A stretch of DNA of 64,000 nucleotides, from positions 1 to 64,000 of the forward strand of contig QWPW01000012.1 in NCBI GenBank assembly GCA_003671025.1, in the 5' to 3' direction. Every line of letters starts with the position of its first letter. Positions within the stretch are counted from its first letter, which is position 1. The notes beneath the pieces are model-generated. The model worked only from the letters and a program-made list of their open reading frames with translations. It was not told the DNA's origin and searched no databases. Made by a program: the position numbers and the translations under genes. This document shows positions 8,924 to 64,000 of this stretch, piece by piece. The DNA is from Planctomycetota bacterium. Lineage in GTDB: Bacteria; Planctomycetota; Phycisphaerae; Phycisphaerales; SM1A02.

Positions 8924-9661
8924 TTACGCGGGCGGCGCACGCCGCACGGTTGCGGGTTCCACCGCGAAACGCAGCGTCATAAATCCGTGATCGACCAACG
9001 CGCGCGCATACGCGGTGAGGAGTCGATTGGCTCGATCGACCGAATCGGGTTCGCACAACTCTGGTGGCTCGCCGCGCGCCACTTGCGCGAGCACATCAAC
9101 TGTTGCGGCACGCATGCGCCACGCGTGAGGATGTGTTGCGAGATCCACAACGCCGCCTGCTGCTGCGTCAAACGCGAGACGCGCGTCGGGAATTCCTTCG
9201 GCATCAAACCGTGGTTCATGGCCGGTTTCACGCAAGAGTTTGACGAAAAACCGCAGGAATTCAGGGGCGGGACGCTCGCCGGCTTCGAGGTGTTCGAGCG
9301 ATGAGAGCATCGCGTCGTACAGCACTTCGTGTGGCGCCGCGATGGGTAAGAATCGATGAACCAGTTCCGCCATCGACAATGCGTACAGGTTTGTTTCGAG
9401 TTCATCGTGAGGCCGACGAAACATCTGCAGCAACGTCCATTGCGTGAGTGTTTGCAATTCGCGATCTGGCTTCACCACCGCGATCACTTCGCCGCGTGCA
9501 AGCAAATCAATGCCGCCAGAAAAACTTCCGCGCTCACGTCGCGCGCCTTTGGCCAACCCGCGCATGATTCCTTGAGCACGACAAAACAGACTCACGGTCT
9601 GACTCGTCTCAGACCAGTCCCACTGGCGAATACATATGGCGTGATCAACAAGATTGGGCAC
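8924..9661 (-). CDS. recO: DNA repair protein RecO
   Basis: A 245-residue protein starting at GTG 9661. The N-terminal OB-fold is recognisable from DHAICIRQWDWSETSQTV and the basic G-x-AKGARRERGSFSGG loop, followed by the helical bundle typical of RecO (YALSMAELVHRF, LLRETGHEPRFD). RecO loads RecA on SSB-coated single strands in the RecFOR gap-repair pathway. The cysteine pairs that form a zinc site in some RecO proteins are absent. It lies between two signalling genes on the same strand, with 85 bp before it and 187 bp after it in which I see no other gene. Confidence 0.88.
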   Translation of the reverse strand: MPNLVDHAICIRQWDWSETSQTVSLFCRAQGIMRGLAKGARRERGSFSGGIDLLARGEVIAVVKPDRELQTLTQWTLLQMFRRPHDELETNLYALSMAELVHRFLPIAAPHEVLYDAMLSSLEHLEAGERPAPEFLRFFVKLLRETGHEPRFDAEGIPDARLAFDAAAGGVVDLATHPHAWRMRAATVDVLAQVARGEPPELCEPDSVDRANRLLTAYARALVDHGFMTLRFAVEPATVRRAPPA

Positions 9662-53019: not shown

Positions 53020-53132
53020 GACATGTCGAGACACCGCGCGCTCTCGTCACTGCGCATGAAGCACGCAGCGGTGTTCGCTAGACTACGCGGCTCGTTGTTG
53101 AGCATCACTTTTTGTATCACAGGGCAGAAGAC

Positions 53133-54479
53133 ATGACCACTCCAGCTTCAATTCTCCTTTCCCGCATCGAACGCTGCGAAGCGCGCATCGGCGTCATCGG
53201 CCTCGGCTACGTCGGACTTCCGCTCGCGCACGCGCTTCATCAGGGCGGTCTGCCCGTTCTCGGCTTTGACATCGATCAATCGAAGATCGATGCGATTGCC
53301 GCGGGCCGCAATTACTTGCAACATCTAGGCAACGATCTCGTGACGACGTTGCGCGACAGCGCGCGCTTCGAGGCGACCACAGATTTCGCACGCCTCGGTG
53401 AAGCCGATGTCATCATCATCTGCGTGCCCACTCCGCTGGGCCGACATTCGGAACCCGACATCTCCTACATCATCGACACCGCCAAAGCCATCGGTCGCAC
53501 TTTGCGCGCAGGGCAGTTGGTGATTCTCGAGTCGACCACGTATCCACGCACAACGCGCGACGACATGATGCCCGCGATCATGGCCGCCGCTGGTGATCGC
53601 GCGCAGTCACTCAAAGTTGGGCGCGATGTGTTTGGCGCGTTCAGTCCTGAACGTGAAGACCCCGGACGCAAGTCGCACTCGACCAGCTCTATTCCAAAGC
53701 TCGTGGGCGGACTCGACGCGATGTCCACGGAACTTGCGAGCGCGGTGTATCGCAAAGGTGTGACCACAGTGGTGTCAGTGTCGAGCGCCGAAGTCGCGGA
53801 GAGCGCGAAGCTGTTGGAGAACATTTTCCGCGCCGTCAACATTGCGTTGGTGAACGAGTTGAAGATCGTGCTCGACGCGATGGACATCGATGTGTGGGAA
53901 GTCGTGCGCGCTGCGAGCACCAAGCCGTTTGGCTTCATGCCTTTCTATCCCGGCCCTGGTCTGGGTGGACATTGCATTCCCATCGATCCCTTCTATCTCA
54001 CCTGGAAAGCGAAGGAATACGGCCTTTCCACGCGCTTCATCGAACTCGCGGGCGAGGTCAACACCTCGATGCCGCACTACGTCATCGATCGTTTGGCCGC
54101 GGCGCTCAATGATCACAGCAAGTCAGTGAAGGGCTCGCGCATTCTCGTCATCGGTCTTGCGTACAAGGCTGAGATCGATGATGTGCGCGAGAGTCCATCG
54201 TTTGAGCTGATCGAGTTGTGTCAGAACCGCGGTGCGCATGTCGACTACCACGATCCCCTGGTTCCTACTACGCGGGCTGGTCGAAAGCACGATCTCCAAA
54301 TGAGCTCAGTGGCGGTCGATGCCGCTTCCATCGCGAGTTACGACTGTGTACTCATTTCGACTGCGCACTCTTCGATCGATTACGCTGCGATTGCGCAGCA
54401 CGCGAAACTTGTGGTTGACACACGTGATGCAATGCGTGCGTTCGAAAGTTCGATGGGCACGCGACTCGTGCGTGCGTAA
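53133..54479 (+). CDS. Nucleotide-sugar dehydrogenase (WecC/UDP-N-acetylhexosamine dehydrogenase type)
   Basis: A 448-residue NAD-dependent enzyme that oxidises the C6 of a UDP-sugar to the uronic acid. The N-terminal Rossmann motif is GVIGLGYVGLPLA; the active-site loop GPGLGGHCIPIDPFYL contains the catalytic Cys; the C-terminal domain holds VIGLAYKAEIDDVRESP. The subtype that includes UDP-GlcNAc and UDP-ManNAc dehydrogenases fits best, but UDP-glucose cannot be excluded. It opens a polysaccharide locus that continues to the right edge. ATG 53133 was preferred over 53112 because it is preceded by a purine-rich GGGCAGAAG. Confidence 0.9.
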   Translation: MTTPASILLSRIERCEARIGVIGLGYVGLPLAHALHQGGLPVLGFDIDQSKIDAIAAGRNYLQHLGNDLVTTLRDSARFEATTDFARLGEADVIIICVPTPLGRHSEPDISYIIDTAKAIGRTLRAGQLVILESTTYPRTTRDDMMPAIMAAAGDRAQSLKVGRDVFGAFSPEREDPGRKSHSTSSIPKLVGGLDAMSTELASAVYRKGVTTVVSVSSAEVAESAKLLENIFRAVNIALVNELKIVLDAMDIDVWEVVRAASTKPFGFMPFYPGPGLGGHCIPIDPFYLTWKAKEYGLSTRFIELAGEVNTSMPHYVIDRLAAALNDHSKSVKGSRILVIGLAYKAEIDDVRESPSFELIELCQNRGAHVDYHDPLVPTTRAGRKHDLQMSSVAVDAASIASYDCVLISTAHSSIDYAAIAQHAKLVVDTRDAMRAFESSMGTRLVRA

Positions 54480-54525: not shown

Positions 54526-55695
54526 ATGAGGATCGTCCACGCCATCACCTCTGTCGACCTGCGCCTCGGCGGAACCGCGCGCGCGGTGATCGATCTCGCT
54601 GAGGCGATGGCCGCGCGTGGGCATGAGGTGACGGTGATCACCGCGAATGATGTCAATGTCGAGCAGTGGGCTCAAGCGCAACCGAAGCGTCCGCGATCAC
54701 TCGTTGACAAAAACCTCAAGCCGATCTTTTCCGCGCGGCGTCCCTCAAGCGAGACGATGCGCACACTTCGCACCGCTGATGTGGTGCATGTCCACGCGAT
54801 GTGGGAGCCATTCAACCTGCGTGTGGCAGCGTGTTGTCGTGCTGTCGGTGTCCCCTATGTGGTGACACCTCATGGAATGTTGGATGACTGGTGTATGGCG
54901 CAGAAGCCGTGGAAAAAACGCCTTCACCTCGCCTTGCACGGACGTGCGTTTTTGGAAGGCGCCGCCTCTGTGCACTGCACTGCCGCTGCGGAGTTGCAGC
55001 AAAGCGCGAAGTGGTTTCCGCGCGGACGCGGACGCGTCGTGCCGAACTTGATGGATCTGAAGGCGTTCGAAGTATTGCCCGGTATTGAAGAGGCAGTGGC
55101 AGCGTTTCCTGAAATCTCGCAACACGCCGTACGCCTTTTGTTTCTCAGTCGTGTTTCGCCCAAGAAGGGTGTCCAGCACCTCGTGGATGCAGTGGCGCAA
55201 CTAGTTCACGATGGAGTGGATGCAGTCGCCTTGATCGCAGGAGGAGCTGATGCGGATTACCGCGTGGCACTCGATGCGCGCGCACAGAAACTCGGCATCA
55301 CTCATCGCATTGTGTATCTCGGTCATGTCGGCGGCACGTTGAAACTCTCGCTCATCCAAGCGTGCGACATGATGGTCATCCCATCAAGTCAGGAGAATTT
55401 CGGTTTCGTATTCTTCGAGTCACTCGCAGCGGGGACACCCGTAGTCACCACCGAGCTCGTCGATACACGCGACGAACTTCGTGGCAGCGGCGGCGCCGTG
55501 ATCGTGCAACAAAACGGCGCGGCGGTCAGTGCGGGTATTCGCGAGGTGATGCGCCGACGCGAGCCTCACGCTGCGGACCCCATGCGCATGGATGTTGCGC
55601 GCGCATGGGTTTTCCGCGAGCTTGCGCTCGACGTGGTGACTGCGCAGTTCGAGGCGATGTATCGCGACGCAGCTTCGATGCGCACCACGGCCTGA
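54526..55695 (+). CDS. Glycosyltransferase family 4 protein
   Basis: A 389-residue GT-B fold enzyme. The acceptor domain opens RIVHAITSVDLRLGGTARAV (Gly-rich loop). The donor domain contains LFLSRVSPKKGVQHLVDA and the GT4 motif PSSQENFGFVFFESLAAGTPVV, with the paired Glu residues of ExxxxxxxE. It should add a sugar from a nucleotide donor to a lipid-linked glycan; donor and acceptor cannot be read. It is 46 bp downstream of the dehydrogenase, probably in the same transcript. Confidence 0.92.
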   Translation: MRIVHAITSVDLRLGGTARAVIDLAEAMAARGHEVTVITANDVNVEQWAQAQPKRPRSLVDKNLKPIFSARRPSSETMRTLRTADVVHVHAMWEPFNLRVAACCRAVGVPYVVTPHGMLDDWCMAQKPWKKRLHLALHGRAFLEGAASVHCTAAAELQQSAKWFPRGRGRVVPNLMDLKAFEVLPGIEEAVAAFPEISQHAVRLLFLSRVSPKKGVQHLVDAVAQLVHDGVDAVALIAGGADADYRVALDARAQKLGITHRIVYLGHVGGTLKLSLIQACDMMVIPSSQENFGFVFFESLAAGTPVVTTELVDTRDELRGSGGAVIVQQNGAAVSAGIREVMRRREPHAADPMRMDVARAWVFRELALDVVTAQFEAMYRDAASMRTTA

Positions 55696-55823: not shown

Positions 55824-57821
55824 ATGCGCTGCTGCTCCGAGTCATTCTCAATTCTCACAGCAGCGATCGCATCCCTCGCCTTTGTGATGTGCTCCCCGAA
55901 AGCACAGTGTGACGACCTGTTGGTGGAGTGGCCGGTCGCGTCGGGTGGCAACGGACATTGGTACGAGCTCGTCGATTTCGGTTCGGCGACTTCGCTGTCA
56001 ACGGCGGAGTTTGTCGCGCAGTCACGCGCAGGCGTGATCAGCTCCGTGGAGTCAGCTGCAGAATTGCAGTTCTTACGCAGCGTTCTCGACACGCAGTCAT
56101 TGCCCGCGGGATGTTGGTGTTCCGCATCGCGACATCCCGAGCGCGAACCACAGTTGCTTGATGCAACATCGAATGTGCTCGGTTGGATTCGCGACGCCCG
56201 CGTTGATCGCCTTGTCGACATCGTGCTCATCGGTGACAGCAACATTGGCTTCAGCGCGACGGGGTGGGATCACGGTGTGCAACACGCGTTGCACGCGGCG
56301 GGCATTCCTTGTGCGGCGATCGGTCCAACACCATTCAACGATGATGGCGGCACCATTGGTTGGCGTTGGAATAAGTTCATTGGACCATCGCAGCAGTGGC
56401 CAAGTTCGTTAGGCAATTACGACGACTCACGAATGCACGCGCCGTCCGCACTTGCTGCGTTGATGAATTTCCCCAACGGTTACCCCAACACCGGCACGGG
56501 CTATGCATGGCTCTCCGGCGGAAGCGCGATCATCGGCGGTGGATTGATCTTGCACACGAATCATCCATTCGTTGCAGACGCTGTTCCGCTCGAGTTCCGC
56601 TTGCGCTACGGCTTGCTTCCTGGTGGCGGGCATTTCACTCCAACCGCGTGGCGCAGTGGAACAATGTCTCGTGTCACCGGGCCGACGGTCGAGTGCAGTG
56701 CGAAGCGATTCACTTCCGCTGAATCTGTGTTGGCCATCCCTCCAGGCTTCGCAACCGGATCTTCACTTCGACTCGGCATTGACGACGGCAACGGCGTCGT
56801 GGCGCCGTTCTTCTTGGGATGGACCAGCGTCGAAAGAAGTGATCTTTCCCACGGCAGTTGCGTGAGTGTTCTTAATTGGCATGGTGGTGCGACCACCGAC
56901 GCCATCGCCTCCGATGTCGAGTCATTCACTTCAGAGAGCGCGACACTTTGGGTGCAAACAATTCGTGCGCGTCAGTTGCGTCATGGACCAAGTGCACGCG
57001 TGCTGTTTCTGATTTGCTCCGGTATGAACGACTTCGGTATCACCACCGAGCTGCATGAAGCAGCGCTGCGACGCATGATTTCCCATCTTTCGCTGCGCTG
57101 GAATGTCGGTGGGGGATCGGCGAGCGAAATCGGATTCGTGTTGATGACATCACACGATCCATCCATGACTGATCCCACTGATCGCTTCCTTGAGTTTCGC
57201 GCCGTCGGTCGCGCGATTGCTGCGGAGCGCAGCGACACCGCGGCGATTGATCTCGGCGCCATTCCGATGCAACAAATTTTTTATGCGGGCTCGTCGACCA
57301 GTTCGCCACACCTCACGCCTGTTGGGTATGAGCGCATGAGTGAACTCGTCATTGCCGCACTCGACGGTTCACAAGGATCGCAATGCGACTGGCACTGGTC
57401 GACTGGCGCGCCGTTGAACGACGTGTCGATCAACGATTCAAATTTGCAGCCGTGTCGGCGCGCGTTGGCAGTGCTTGATCAATCGCCGACACGCGGTCTC
57501 GAGTTACGCGGCGTTGCCGTGGACACCAGGATGGGTCTGGCATTGATTGAGTATGCGGTCGACTGCGATGGAGACGGACTGGTCGATCGTGGCGCCGTTG
57601 CCGCGGGCCTCACGGTGGACATCAATGGCAACTTCGTGCCAGACGCGTGTGAGTGCCTCAGCGATCTGAATCAGGACGGATCCATCGACAGCAGAGACCT
57701 CGCAGCGTTGCTCAATAGTTGGGGAGAGTCAGGCACTGGCGCAGACATCGATGGATCGGGCGTCGTTGATGCCGCGGACCTCACCATCATGTTGACCAAC
57801 TGGGGAGCGTGCAAACTCTAG
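55824..57821 (+). CDS. Secreted SGNH/GDSL-like hydrolase with C-terminal dockerin-like repeats
   Basis: A 665-residue protein with a signal peptide (ILTAAIASLAFVMCS). A SGNH-like domain starts at DIVLIGDSNIGFS, with the nucleophile Ser in GDS. The late block reads SSPHLTPVGYERM, where the His is present but the Asp of the usual DxxH is replaced by Ser, so activity is uncertain or uses another acid. The C-terminus has two calcium-loop repeats (DLNQDGSIDSRDLAALLNSWG; ADIDGSGVVDAADLTIMLTNWG), the planctomycete dockerin-like form. It may modify or bind the surface glycan made by this locus. Start support is weak. Confidence 0.72.
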   Translation: MRCCSESFSILTAAIASLAFVMCSPKAQCDDLLVEWPVASGGNGHWYELVDFGSATSLSTAEFVAQSRAGVISSVESAAELQFLRSVLDTQSLPAGCWCSASRHPEREPQLLDATSNVLGWIRDARVDRLVDIVLIGDSNIGFSATGWDHGVQHALHAAGIPCAAIGPTPFNDDGGTIGWRWNKFIGPSQQWPSSLGNYDDSRMHAPSALAALMNFPNGYPNTGTGYAWLSGGSAIIGGGLILHTNHPFVADAVPLEFRLRYGLLPGGGHFTPTAWRSGTMSRVTGPTVECSAKRFTSAESVLAIPPGFATGSSLRLGIDDGNGVVAPFFLGWTSVERSDLSHGSCVSVLNWHGGATTDAIASDVESFTSESATLWVQTIRARQLRHGPSARVLFLICSGMNDFGITTELHEAALRRMISHLSLRWNVGGGSASEIGFVLMTSHDPSMTDPTDRFLEFRAVGRAIAAERSDTAAIDLGAIPMQQIFYAGSSTSSPHLTPVGYERMSELVIAALDGSQGSQCDWHWSTGAPLNDVSINDSNLQPCRRALAVLDQSPTRGLELRGVAVDTRMGLALIEYAVDCDGDGLVDRGAVAAGLTVDINGNFVPDACECLSDLNQDGSIDSRDLAALLNSWGESGTGADIDGSGVVDAADLTIMLTNWGACKL

Positions 57822-59473: not shown

Positions 59474-60694
<1,221 letters not shown>

Positions 60695-60738: not shown

Positions 60739-63700
60739 CTACTCCGCGAGCGGCTTCGCAGCGCGTTGGCGAACTTCGAAAAGAAGTGCTCGCACTTGAC
60801 CGTGCAAGCTGGGTGCGAGCACTCTGAGCACGCCGACGTAGACCGCAAATCCCAACAAACCAGCAACCACCTGCGCAGTCAACGCGCTCCAAGAATTGTC
60901 TCCTGTCCACTCGAGCATCAAAAATTGCGGAGTCATGGCGATGGCGCTCGCGATGATGGGCATCGCGTAGACATCTACGACGGTGCGCAATCGTCTGGTA
61001 TGACCCCCGAGCGAGACCACGATCGCGATGGGTCCGAAGAATGCCGAGACGATGAATACCGCGAAGGCGACATGACGAGCGACGCCGTACTTGGCGGCGA
61101 TGAACACGGCGATGGTCAGCACGATGGTGTGAAAAATCTGGAATCGCAGCAGGTGTTGAAATCGCCCGCGCGCGCGCATGAAGGCGGCGGCGATCTGGAT
61201 GGGGTTCATCGCCAATACTGCGACGGAGAGAATCGTCAGTGAGATCCACGCGAGTTCCCAGCGCTCAGGCAGCAACATCGTCACCAGCACCGGACTGGCA
61301 ATGGCCAACGAAACACAGATGGGTGCGGTGACCGCGAGCGTGAGTCGCAGGGTCGCGAGATAGGCGGCAAGCTTGCGTGCGGGATCGTGTTGTAATCGGC
61401 TGAAGATGGGCTGCGCGATGCCGGCAACAGTGTGCGAAATCACCGCATTTACCGTGTTTGCCAGTTGAAATGCAATGGTGTAACGACCAAGCACCTCCTC
61501 GGTGTGATAGATAGAAATGGCGAAGTAGTCGACGGTCTGCGTGACGCCGTTGAGGTAATGCTGAATGCCGCCCGCGCGGAAGTCTGACGCGAGTGAACCC
61601 ATGCGCCGCGCCAACCCTGGCCGGTACAGCGGGATTCCTGCGGCAATAGTGATGGCAGAAAAGCGCAGGCACGCCGCGACCAACATCGGTGCAAGCAGCG
61701 CCCACCCCGCAAATCCCAGCAAGCCCATCACCGCGGTGGCTACCAGTGTGATCACCGACAACACACTCTCGACGGTGGTCAAGTACCGAAAGCGCAAATC
61801 GAGTCGAAGCTTCGCCGCACCGACAATGCTCGCAGCGTCGAACAAAATGCGAATCGCCGCTCCGAGCACAAAGATGGGAATCAACGGATCGGGATAAAAC
61901 GCGCCCACGAATGGATACGCGATCGCGCACAACAGCAGCACCGAAAGTCCAGCGACGAGCGCGAGCCACAGACACGCAGTTTGCCACAAGGCGCGTTCGC
62001 GTTGGTGACGCATGAGCAAGTCGCCCGCGGCACCCGGAAACACAAAACTCAACAACGTCGCGATCGTGATCGCCGTCGTGACGGCGCCGACATCGGTTGG
62101 TTGCAGCGTCCACGCGGCGATGAGATACGCCAAGAACGAACAACCCTTTTGCACTGCTGCTTGCACTAATCCCCAGAATGTGCTGCCGGCAAATTCGCGT
62201 CGCGTCTGCGTGGCGCTTGTTTGCACATTGCTTTCGACCGAATCGTCGTCGCTGCGTCGATCCTCCCATACTGCCTGCACCACTTCGACTCCAAGCGCTG
62301 GCGCGACATCAAGACTCGACATCGCGTCCATGGGCGCCGCATCTGTATTCGTTGCGGAGAGTTCATCGAGGCGCACTTCTTCGTTGGGCTCGCTGTCGGC
62401 GCGATGCAGACTCGTCGCGATCGCAATCACGGCTTCTTCATCGAACGATGTGTTGGGCAGTTCACCGCCAGGACCCCATCGTTCGAGCCAGGTCTCGAAC
62501 ATCAAGCAGTTCCACAGTTCCCACTGCACCTGTGCGGCGCCTGATTGATGGTGCTCCCACAACGCGTTGACCGACTCTGGATCAAGGTAACCCTCGCGCG
62601 CGAGACGACCGCGATTGAGATGATCGCTGGCCCATTCACGCAACTCGTTGCGCAACCAACCATCGATAGGAACACCGAAGCCCATCTTGGGTCGCTCCAT
62701 GAGTTCGCGTGGAACGTAGCGATCGAGCACATCGCGCAGAATGATTTTGTTGCGGCCATTCGCGTACTTGAAACGCGCGGGTAAGCGCAACGCAAGTTCG
62801 AGCAGGCGATGATCAGTGAGCGGTTCGCGCGCTTCAAGACTGTGCGCCATGCTCACGCGATCCATCTTGGCCAGAATCTCGTCGGGCATATAGCTGGCCA
62901 TGTCACGCACACTCGCACGGGTGATGGCGCAAGGAATTGCCGCACTCCACGCGGGATCGGTCATAGGACAGAGCGGCTCGGTCGCGTCCACCAGGAGTAA
63001 CTCCGGCCGCTTCACTACCGACGCCAATCGTGCATAGACATCACCTTTGTCGCGAAGTTGCAACACTGCCGCCAACTTGCGCAGTCGATCGGCGGGGCGA
63101 TTGATGTGTGAGCCCGGAATCTTTCCGCGAAACGGATGCAGCAGCGCACCGGGAAGAAGACTCGCTCCGCGCGCTGCGACAGAAGCTCCGATGCGCATGG
63201 AATACGGCCAGCGGTCAACCAACTGCTCGATTCGTTGGGCGAACGGATAGCGTTCGTATCCGCCGAAGAGTTCGTCACCACCATCGCCACTCAGTGCAAC
63301 TGTGACATCGCGACGCGCGAGTTGACACACGATGTACGAAGGAATCGCCGAGCTGTCGGCGAAGGGCTCATCGTAAATATCCGCGAGCTTGGGGATGACC
63401 TCGAGCGTGTCATGCGCGTTGACATAGAGCTCAGTGTGTTGCGTTCCCAGATGTTCAGCGATGCGCCGTGCGTGTGGCGCTTCGTCGTAATGAGTCGCAT
63501 CAAAGCCGATGGTGTATGTGCGCAGCGGCGTGGCCGTGTGCGTCGCGGCAATCGCAGTGACCAGTGTTGAGTCAATGCCGCCCGAGAGAAACGAACCCAC
63601 CGGAACATCGGCGATCATGCGCAAGCGCACCGACTCCACCAATCGTTCATGGACGAGGTGACACGCTTCGGCGTAGTCTTCGATTTGGTTTTGTGCAGCG

Positions 63701-64000
63701 CGTTCTGCGGCTTCCTTCGCGCTCCAATACGCCCAATCGGTGTGACGCCCTGTGGCCGGATCGATTTCGATCACATGACCAGGAAGCACCTTGTGCATCC
63801 CCTTGAAGATGCAGTGCGGACTCGGCACATATCCAAATCGCATGTACAGCGCGAGCGCACCACGATCAATCTCAGGACATTGCAACGGCAGCGCGCGAAT
63901 CGCCTTCAGCTCACTGGCAAAAACGATCGTGCGTTCGCCGGGACCAATCTTGCCCCAGAACAACGGCTTCACGCCGAGGCGATCGCGCACCAGATACAAA
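60739..64000 (-). CDS. Fusion: asparagine synthetase B domain plus Wzx/MOP-type flippase (5' end cut by window edge)
   Basis: One uninterrupted frame of at least 1086 residues. In window numbering, residues 1-75 are the end of a class II glutaminase domain (VRDRLGVKPLFWG, FASELKAI). Residues 95-510 are a complete AsnB synthetase domain with SFLSGGIDSTLV and SGDGGDELFGGYERY, the ATP loop. Residues about 511-602 are a polar Asp/Glu/Ser linker. Residues about 603-1070 are a polysaccharide flippase with some 12-14 helices (FWGLVQAAVQKGCSFLAYL, LQPTDVGAVTTAITIATLL). The usual stop/start between two such genes is absent. The glutaminase start lies outside the window. AsnB-like enzymes amidate sugar uronates in surface glycans, which fits the dehydrogenase upstream. 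Confidence 0.85.
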   Translation of the reverse strand, partial: LYLVRDRLGVKPLFWGKIGPGERTIVFASELKAIRALPLQCPEIDRGALALYMRFGYVPSPHCIFKGMHKVLPGHVIEIDPATGRHTDWAYWSAKEAAERAAQNQIEDYAEACHLVHERLVESVRLRMIADVPVGSFLSGGIDSTLVTAIAATHTATPLRTYTIGFDATHYDEAPHARRIAEHLGTQHTELYVNAHDTLEVIPKLADIYDEPFADSSAIPSYIVCQLARRDVTVALSGDGGDELFGGYERYPFAQRIEQLVDRWPYSMRIGASVAARGASLLPGALLHPFRGKIPGSHINRPADRLRKLAAVLQLRDKGDVYARLASVVKRPELLLVDATEPLCPMTDPAWSAAIPCAITRASVRDMASYMPDEILAKMDRVSMAHSLEAREPLTDHRLLELALRLPARFKYANGRNKIILRDVLDRYVPRELMERPKMGFGVPIDGWLRNELREWASDHLNRGRLAREGYLDPESVNALWEHHQSGAAQVQWELWNCLMFETWLERWGPGGELPNTSFDEEAVIAIATSLHRADSEPNEEVRLDELSATNTDAAPMDAMSSLDVAPALGVEVVQAVWEDRRSDDDSVESNVQTSATQTRREFAGSTFWGLVQAAVQKGCSFLAYLIAAWTLQPTDVGAVTTAITIATLLSFVFPGAAGDLLMRHQRERALWQTACLWLALVAGLSVLLLCAIAYPFVGAFYPDPLIPIFVLGAAIRILFDAASIVGAAKLRLDLRFRYLTTVESVLSVITLVATAVMGLLGFAGWALLAPMLVAACLRFSAITIAAGIPLYRPGLARRMGSLASDFRAGGIQHYLNGVTQTVDYFAISIYHTEEVLGRYTIAFQLANTVNAVISHTVAGIAQPIFSRLQHDPARKLAAYLATLRLTLAVTAPICVSLAIASPVLVTMLLPERWELAWISLTILSVAVLAMNPIQIAAAFMRARGRFQHLLRFQIFHTIVLTIAVFIAAKYGVARHVAFAVFIVSAFFGPIAIVVSLGGHTRRLRTVVDVYAMPIIASAIAMTPQFLMLEWTGDNSWSALTAQVVAGLLGFAVYVGVLRVLAPSLHGQVRALLFEVRQRAAKPLAE

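Follow-up and report, generated by a model that had tools for sequence, protein, structure and literature searches.

An AsnB-type amidotransferase fused to a MOP-type flippase in a planctomycetal polysaccharide locus

The window, a stretch of 64,000 nucleotides from contig QWPW01000012.1 of a Planctomycetota genome, carries in its last part genes of a polysaccharide locus bounded by ugd and cysS (Table 1). Besides the tabulated genes, the locus holds a formyltransferase, a deacetylase and a GDP-fucose-synthase-like enzyme (288 bits, below the model cut-off of 500), as well as glycosyltransferases (WcaI-like and others) and an acetyltransferase of the WcaF kind, these two being below their cut-offs. 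The arrangement is similar to a colanic-acid-type system. Elsewhere in the genome, on other contigs, there is a single match to the initiating transferase family PF02397 and a single match to the exporter family PF02563. The GDP-mannose 4,6-dehydratase gene adjoins the fusion in four other genomes as well (G005, G031, G173 and G220). A 665-residue protein with a C-terminal dockerin-type domain, encoded within the locus at 55824-57821, also occurs in G005 (57%) and G220 (45%). Just past the window, at C4:65745-66171 (L005:5746-6172), what is left of an additional GDP-fucose-synthase-like gene (62%, 50 aa) and of an additional GT4 gene (57%, 97 aa) lies between the intact copies and probably represents a recombination scar.

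Table 1. Features of the fusion gene and its surroundings (window positions unless prefixed by C4 or L005)
Feature	Coordinates	Strand	Remarks
asnB-flippase fusion gene, window portion	60739..64000	-	single open frame reaching the window edge
whole asnB-flippase fusion gene	C4:60739-64413 (= L005:740-4414)	-	1224 aa
AsnB-type part, residues 1-646	62476..64000	-	residues 1 to ~138 are encoded past the window edge (C4:64001-64413)
acidic linker, residues 647-738	62200..62475	-	92 residues, predicted disordered
MOP-type flippase part, 486 residues	60742..62199	-	starts at residue 739; 14 membrane helices on the AlphaFold model
GDP-mannose 4,6-dehydratase	59474..60580	-	next gene downstream of the fusion
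candidate repeat-unit polymerase (Wzy-like), 460 aa	57875..59257	-	inferred from context; no family match
nucleotide-sugar dehydrogenase	53112..54479	+	TIGR03026, over cut-off
GT4-type glycosyltransferase, same locus	54526..55695	+

The initial annotation had read the end of the window as one frame encoding an AsnB enzyme, an acidic linker of about 90 residues and a flippase, and the complete gene has this organization. It starts at C4:64413, beyond the window edge on a contig of 81,593 bases, and its frame contains no stop codon. The protein begins with MCGIAGF, which places the catalytic cysteine directly after Met1, and its Pfam domains, all above cut-offs, follow one another as GATase_6 (residues 33-168), GATase_7 (51-173), Asn_synthase (254-644) and Polysacc_synt_3 (770-1053). 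The linker is acidic as described, with 20 Asp/Glu against 5 Lys/Arg in 92 residues. That the two parts form one single protein is close to certain.

Fusion of AsnB and flippase was found in 8 of the 181 genomes of the family, spread over three genera, in a search with a flippase profile that scored no more than 8 candidates in each genome. Seven fusions are intact and measure 1186-1224 residues: the present one (G000, genus g1), three in g17 (G031, G173 and G220) and three in g6 (G020, G194 and G354). The eighth, in the genus-mate G005, is fused through the linker, and its flippase lacks ~41 residues (~130 bases) and shows a frame change at L039 ~9530-9536, which may reflect decay or an assembly error. 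The fusion was not found in 14 of the 16 g1 genomes (six of these 14 being less than 90% complete), nor at E <=1e-40 in the g17 genome G254. Across the phylum (392 genomes, E <=1e-15, with scoring limited to 4 candidates in each) the only frames above 1,000 aa were two fusions already found, G999 having a candidate of 977 aa, and a strict search of the class (397 genomes, 1e-50) added none.

A stop, frameshift or assembly join in the linker had been named as what would undo the initial proposal. Neither stop nor frameshift is present, and the fusion is uninterrupted in six other genomes. An assembly join is rejected, since the fusion recurs in separate metagenome-assembled genomes and the linker evolves as coding sequence, loosely yet under constraint. 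Between G173 and G220 the linker has a dN of 0.40 and a dS of 1.41 (near saturation), with differences at 30% of codon positions 1 and 2 and at 59% of position 3; dN is 0.07 in both flanking parts. Across the fusions the linker varies from 54 to 92 residues, its frame is always open and close pairs show purifying selection. Comparison of the linkers of the two fused clades for homology, meant to tell two fusions from a fusion plus a fission, gave no clear signal above shuffles, and between G000 and genus g17 little signal (best z 2.4). An internal start yielding a separate flippase was also considered and rejected: the seven intact fusions share no linker position with an in-frame start codon, and a GTG within the first flippase helix, present in six of the seven, would cut that helix.

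The structure of residues 1-1200 of the 1224 was predicted with AlphaFold from an alignment (A3) of the 7 fusions, 25 of 31 other AsnB rows and 25 of 27 other flippase rows. The model shows two confident domains, and residues 654-662 and 665-734 have pLDDT values below 50. Given this and the pTM of 0.64, the relative placement of the domains is undefined, and the linker is to be seen as a tether and not as a rigid joint.

The flippase part, which had been described as a full Wzx/MOP-type transporter, matches that description by sequence family (PF13440, Polysacc_synt_3, 109 bits against a cut-off of 23) and by predicted fold. In the flippase model (pLDDT 89.5) it most resembles MurJ (Z 30.8; rmsd 3.3 over 443 residues) and WzxE (Z 28.6; rmsd 3.4 over 391 residues), at a structural-alignment identity of 12-16%. 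Fold search and model count agree with the 12-14 membrane helices of the MOP fold. A hydropathy scan alone gives 12 membrane peaks here and 11-13 across the flippase parts of the fusions, so the even number of helices depends on the predicted model. The sequence profile matched no solved structure at E <=0.1, and the MurJ sequence family was absent among 17 matches at E <=1; the PRK10459 and TuaB models matched below their cut-offs. With an even number of helices and the orientation of MurJ, the N-terminus, and hence the AsnB part, would presumably face the cytosol.

How the joined state arose was approached with trees of 38 AsnB and 34 flippase rows, from which near-duplicates and rows below 75% (AsnB) or 70% (flippase) coverage had been dropped, G005 being represented in the flippase tree by its longer piece only. 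Both trees have the same main splits, G321 with g6 on one side and g1 with g17 on the other, and the grouping of the eight fused proteins as a single clade is rejected in each (p-AU 0.0003 for AsnB and 0.0004 for the flippase); for the flippase, the branching among G321, G194 and G020+G354 lacks resolution. By these matching splits and the rejected single clade, AsnB and flippase were co-inherited, and they were either joined on two occasions or joined once and separated once. Two separate genes in all close relatives had likewise been named as what would undo the initial proposal. This arrangement holds for G321 (g18), where AsnB (52% identical) and flippase are separate genes overlapping at ATGAATGA with no linker, and fails for the fusion-bearing genomes of the family. 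Such an overlapping pair lends some credit to the notion that the fusion is a neutral by-product whose two parts function on their own, possibly once the linker has been cleaved, as do the low conservation of the linker, the least conserved portion of the protein, and the AU tests, by which the joined or separate state changed at least two times on the tree. We consider this improbable, as three genera keep the fusion even though the flippases of the two main fused clades are only 35-36% identical, and as the linker stays open under the purifying selection described above. The fusion being real and recurrent, there are good grounds for physically linking amidation with flipping.

The cassette may also have moved. 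In both trees G000 clusters with g17 (100/99 for AsnB, only 84/84 for the flippase) and not with G005 of its own genus, a sign that the fusion cassette may have been exchanged horizontally. Among genus-mates, the ugd-cysS site looks like a fixed site of cassette exchange: G013 (L127) and G014 (L128) have the same locus with a standalone flippase ~25% identical, and no AsnB match lies in the corresponding stretch of these two or of G004, whose flippase fell below the limit in the locus search, though it was matched in another search. Judged by coordinates, a flippase and the dehydrogenase are immediate neighbours in 11 of the 14 fusion-less g1 genomes. A flippase 31-32% identical occupies the same site in G147 and G308, adjoining the same divergently transcribed GT4 gene, and no AsnB match was found within 17.0 and 14.0 kb, respectively. 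This type of flippase therefore needs no adjacent amidase, and these two genomes are exceptions to the tendency of the AsnB part and the fusion-type flippase to travel together. Elsewhere the present genome encodes another AsnB-like amidotransferase (45% identical), which stands alone at L006:5805-7799 (G000:C11) among glycosyltransferase-like genes and with no flippase of the fusion type within 14 kb.

As to the enzyme, the initial annotation had noted a complete AsnB synthetase with intact motifs, and glutaminase and synthetase are indeed both whole. The glutaminase residues Cys2, Arg52, Asn78, Gly79, Glu80 and Asp103 and the synthetase residues S277, G279, D281, S282, D377, D380, E381 and K556 are invariant in the seven intact fusions. 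A Cys2 nucleophile with Arg, NGE and Asp motifs is what we take to be the hallmark of class II glutamine amidotransferases, to which the protein also belongs by its GATase_7 score (139.1 bits against a cut-off of 25). The best-scoring family of the AsnB part is TIGR03108 (eps_aminotran_1), at 559.6 bits (561.4 in a second search), which falls short of the curated cut-off of 816.9; the enzyme may work like eps_aminotran_1/WbpS, and family membership is not assigned. A DNA similarity search for E. coli WbqG gave zero matches. Two motifs, GDGGDE and an EPxADxS-like one, are common to the fusions and most other AsnB relatives. In alignment, T321, T322, R324 and E348 of E. coli AsnB, which presumably serve aspartate binding and catalysis, correspond to P350, F351, D353 and D377 in all seven intact fusions. 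With TIGR03108 as best family and these residues replaced, calling the enzyme an asparagine synthetase probably misstates its substrate.

The replaced residues count against aspartate as the acceptor, the substrate annotated, which is one form of a broader alternative whereby the enzyme would amidate some other carboxyl, whether of an amino acid, of a lactyl or pyruvyl substituent or of a protein. Such acceptors draw support from the broad family of glutamine-hydrolysing asparagine synthases (TIGR01536, 487.8 bits, over the cut-off of 267.1), from the promiscuity described for some AsnB-like enzymes (PMC8554201) and from the formyltransferase and deacetylase of the locus; no such pair was seen next to the fusion in G031 and G005, and the alternative as a whole seems very improbable. 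Amidation of a repeat-unit sugar is, in comparison, fairly probable.

The nucleotide-sugar dehydrogenase had been taken as a sign that uronic acids are the acceptors. The gene is present, and it scores higher with UDP-HexNAc dehydrogenase models than with UDP-glucose dehydrogenase models. As specific support for a uronate it is rejected: with a counterpart in 147 of 181 family genomes (E <=1e-100), including G147 and G308, it adds little, and in all three g6 fusion genomes it lies on contigs other than that of the fusion.

Literature on related enzymes bears on both the acceptor and the stage of amidation. WbpS and WbqG are placed in TIGR03108, with PGN_1234 near them, and tied to uronamide formation in PMC7468200, which also locates asnB of P. 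gingivalis immediately downstream of wbpE and wzx and describes the specificity and pathway position of WbpS as not known. In H. pullorum, a wbpS mutant makes a truncated glycan, whose last sugar is given as HexNAcAN in the Results and as HexNAcA in the Discussion of PMC6025236; its authors assume amidation of the UDP-sugar, and the HexNAcA reading would fit amidation at the lipid stage too. The AsnB-type LtsA, on the other hand, has lipids I and II as acceptors (PMC7920481).

On the published model of WbpS (PMC6025236), the AsnB part would amidate a soluble nucleotide sugar (UDP-HexNAcA to UDP-HexNAcAN), the flippase serving only as an anchor or to fix stoichiometry. The locus dehydrogenase, with its best specific scores against UDP-HexNAc dehydrogenase models, and a flexible linker that imposes no geometry both agree with this route. 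It leaves unexplained why the partner is a flippase and not a dehydrogenase or a glycosyltransferase, and an AsnB-type enzyme, LtsA, does work on lipid-linked units (PMC7920481); we regard the soluble route as unlikely, if less so than the other alternatives.

The preferred reading, to which we give a probability of roughly 0.5, is that the fusion amidates the carboxyl of a repeat-unit sugar at the membrane and then exports that unit, with acceptor and stage inferred. A WbpS/LtsA-like glutamine-dependent amidotransferase would be carried at the N-terminus, flexibly tethered by the acidic linker to a flippase of the MurJ/WzxE fold. Cys2 would hydrolyse glutamine and the ammonia would pass to the synthetase site, where the carboxylate of a sugar in the undecaprenyl-diphosphate-linked repeat unit, most likely a hexuronate or an N-acetylhexosaminuronate, would be activated as an acyl-AMP and amidated. 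The attached flippase would then carry the amidated unit across the membrane. The lipid-linked stage taken by itself stands at slightly less than even odds, and the coupling to flipping, like the acceptor, is a proposal. More tentative is the notion of a machine that amidates and then flips, in which the last cytosolic tailoring step is built into the flippase and amidated units are preferentially exported; on that view WbpS-type enzymes could work on the lipid-linked unit instead of the UDP-sugar. Of the initial idea that a uronate is amidated just before flipping, the physical link thus stands; the uronate is plausible from the TIGR03108 score and the lipid-linked stage from the LtsA precedent, and what falls away is the support from the dehydrogenase and the name asparagine synthetase.

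The pathway stage at which WbpS-type amidotransferases act is an open question, and a natural fusion to a flippase points to the lipid-linked stage, while offering a single construct on which the stage of amidation can be tested. If the preferred reading is true, the fusion would also plainly exemplify a Wzx-type flippase equipped with a modifying enzyme of its own, which touches on the question of how finished units are recognized by flippases.

Among the matches listed in searches of the open-access PMC literature, no report of an AsnB-flippase fusion was found. Comparison is with systems related to one half or the other. The flippase has the fold of MurJ and WzxE and sub-cut-off matches to PRK10459 and TuaB, at just 12-16% identity to MurJ and WzxE; we know of no enzyme domain in MurJ, WzxE or WzxC/TuaB flippases. 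Actinobacterial MviN/MurJ is a MOP flippase with an additional cytosolic domain, a pseudokinase, which, unlike the AsnB part, is C-terminal and regulatory and not a metabolic enzyme. LtsA and the AsnB-type diaminopimelate amidases share the AsnB type, a location at the membrane and lipid-linked wall precursors as acceptors (PMC7920481); LtsA is a separate protein whose acceptor carboxyl lies in a peptide. On the enzyme side there are also WbpS, WbqG and PGN_1234, with the same AsnB domain order, the same best-scoring family and a polysaccharide locus with a sugar dehydrogenase, from which the fusion differs in that they are separate proteins and in its score below the family cut-off. Enzyme type and transporter type are each already known, and it is for the architecture joining them that those searches listed no report.
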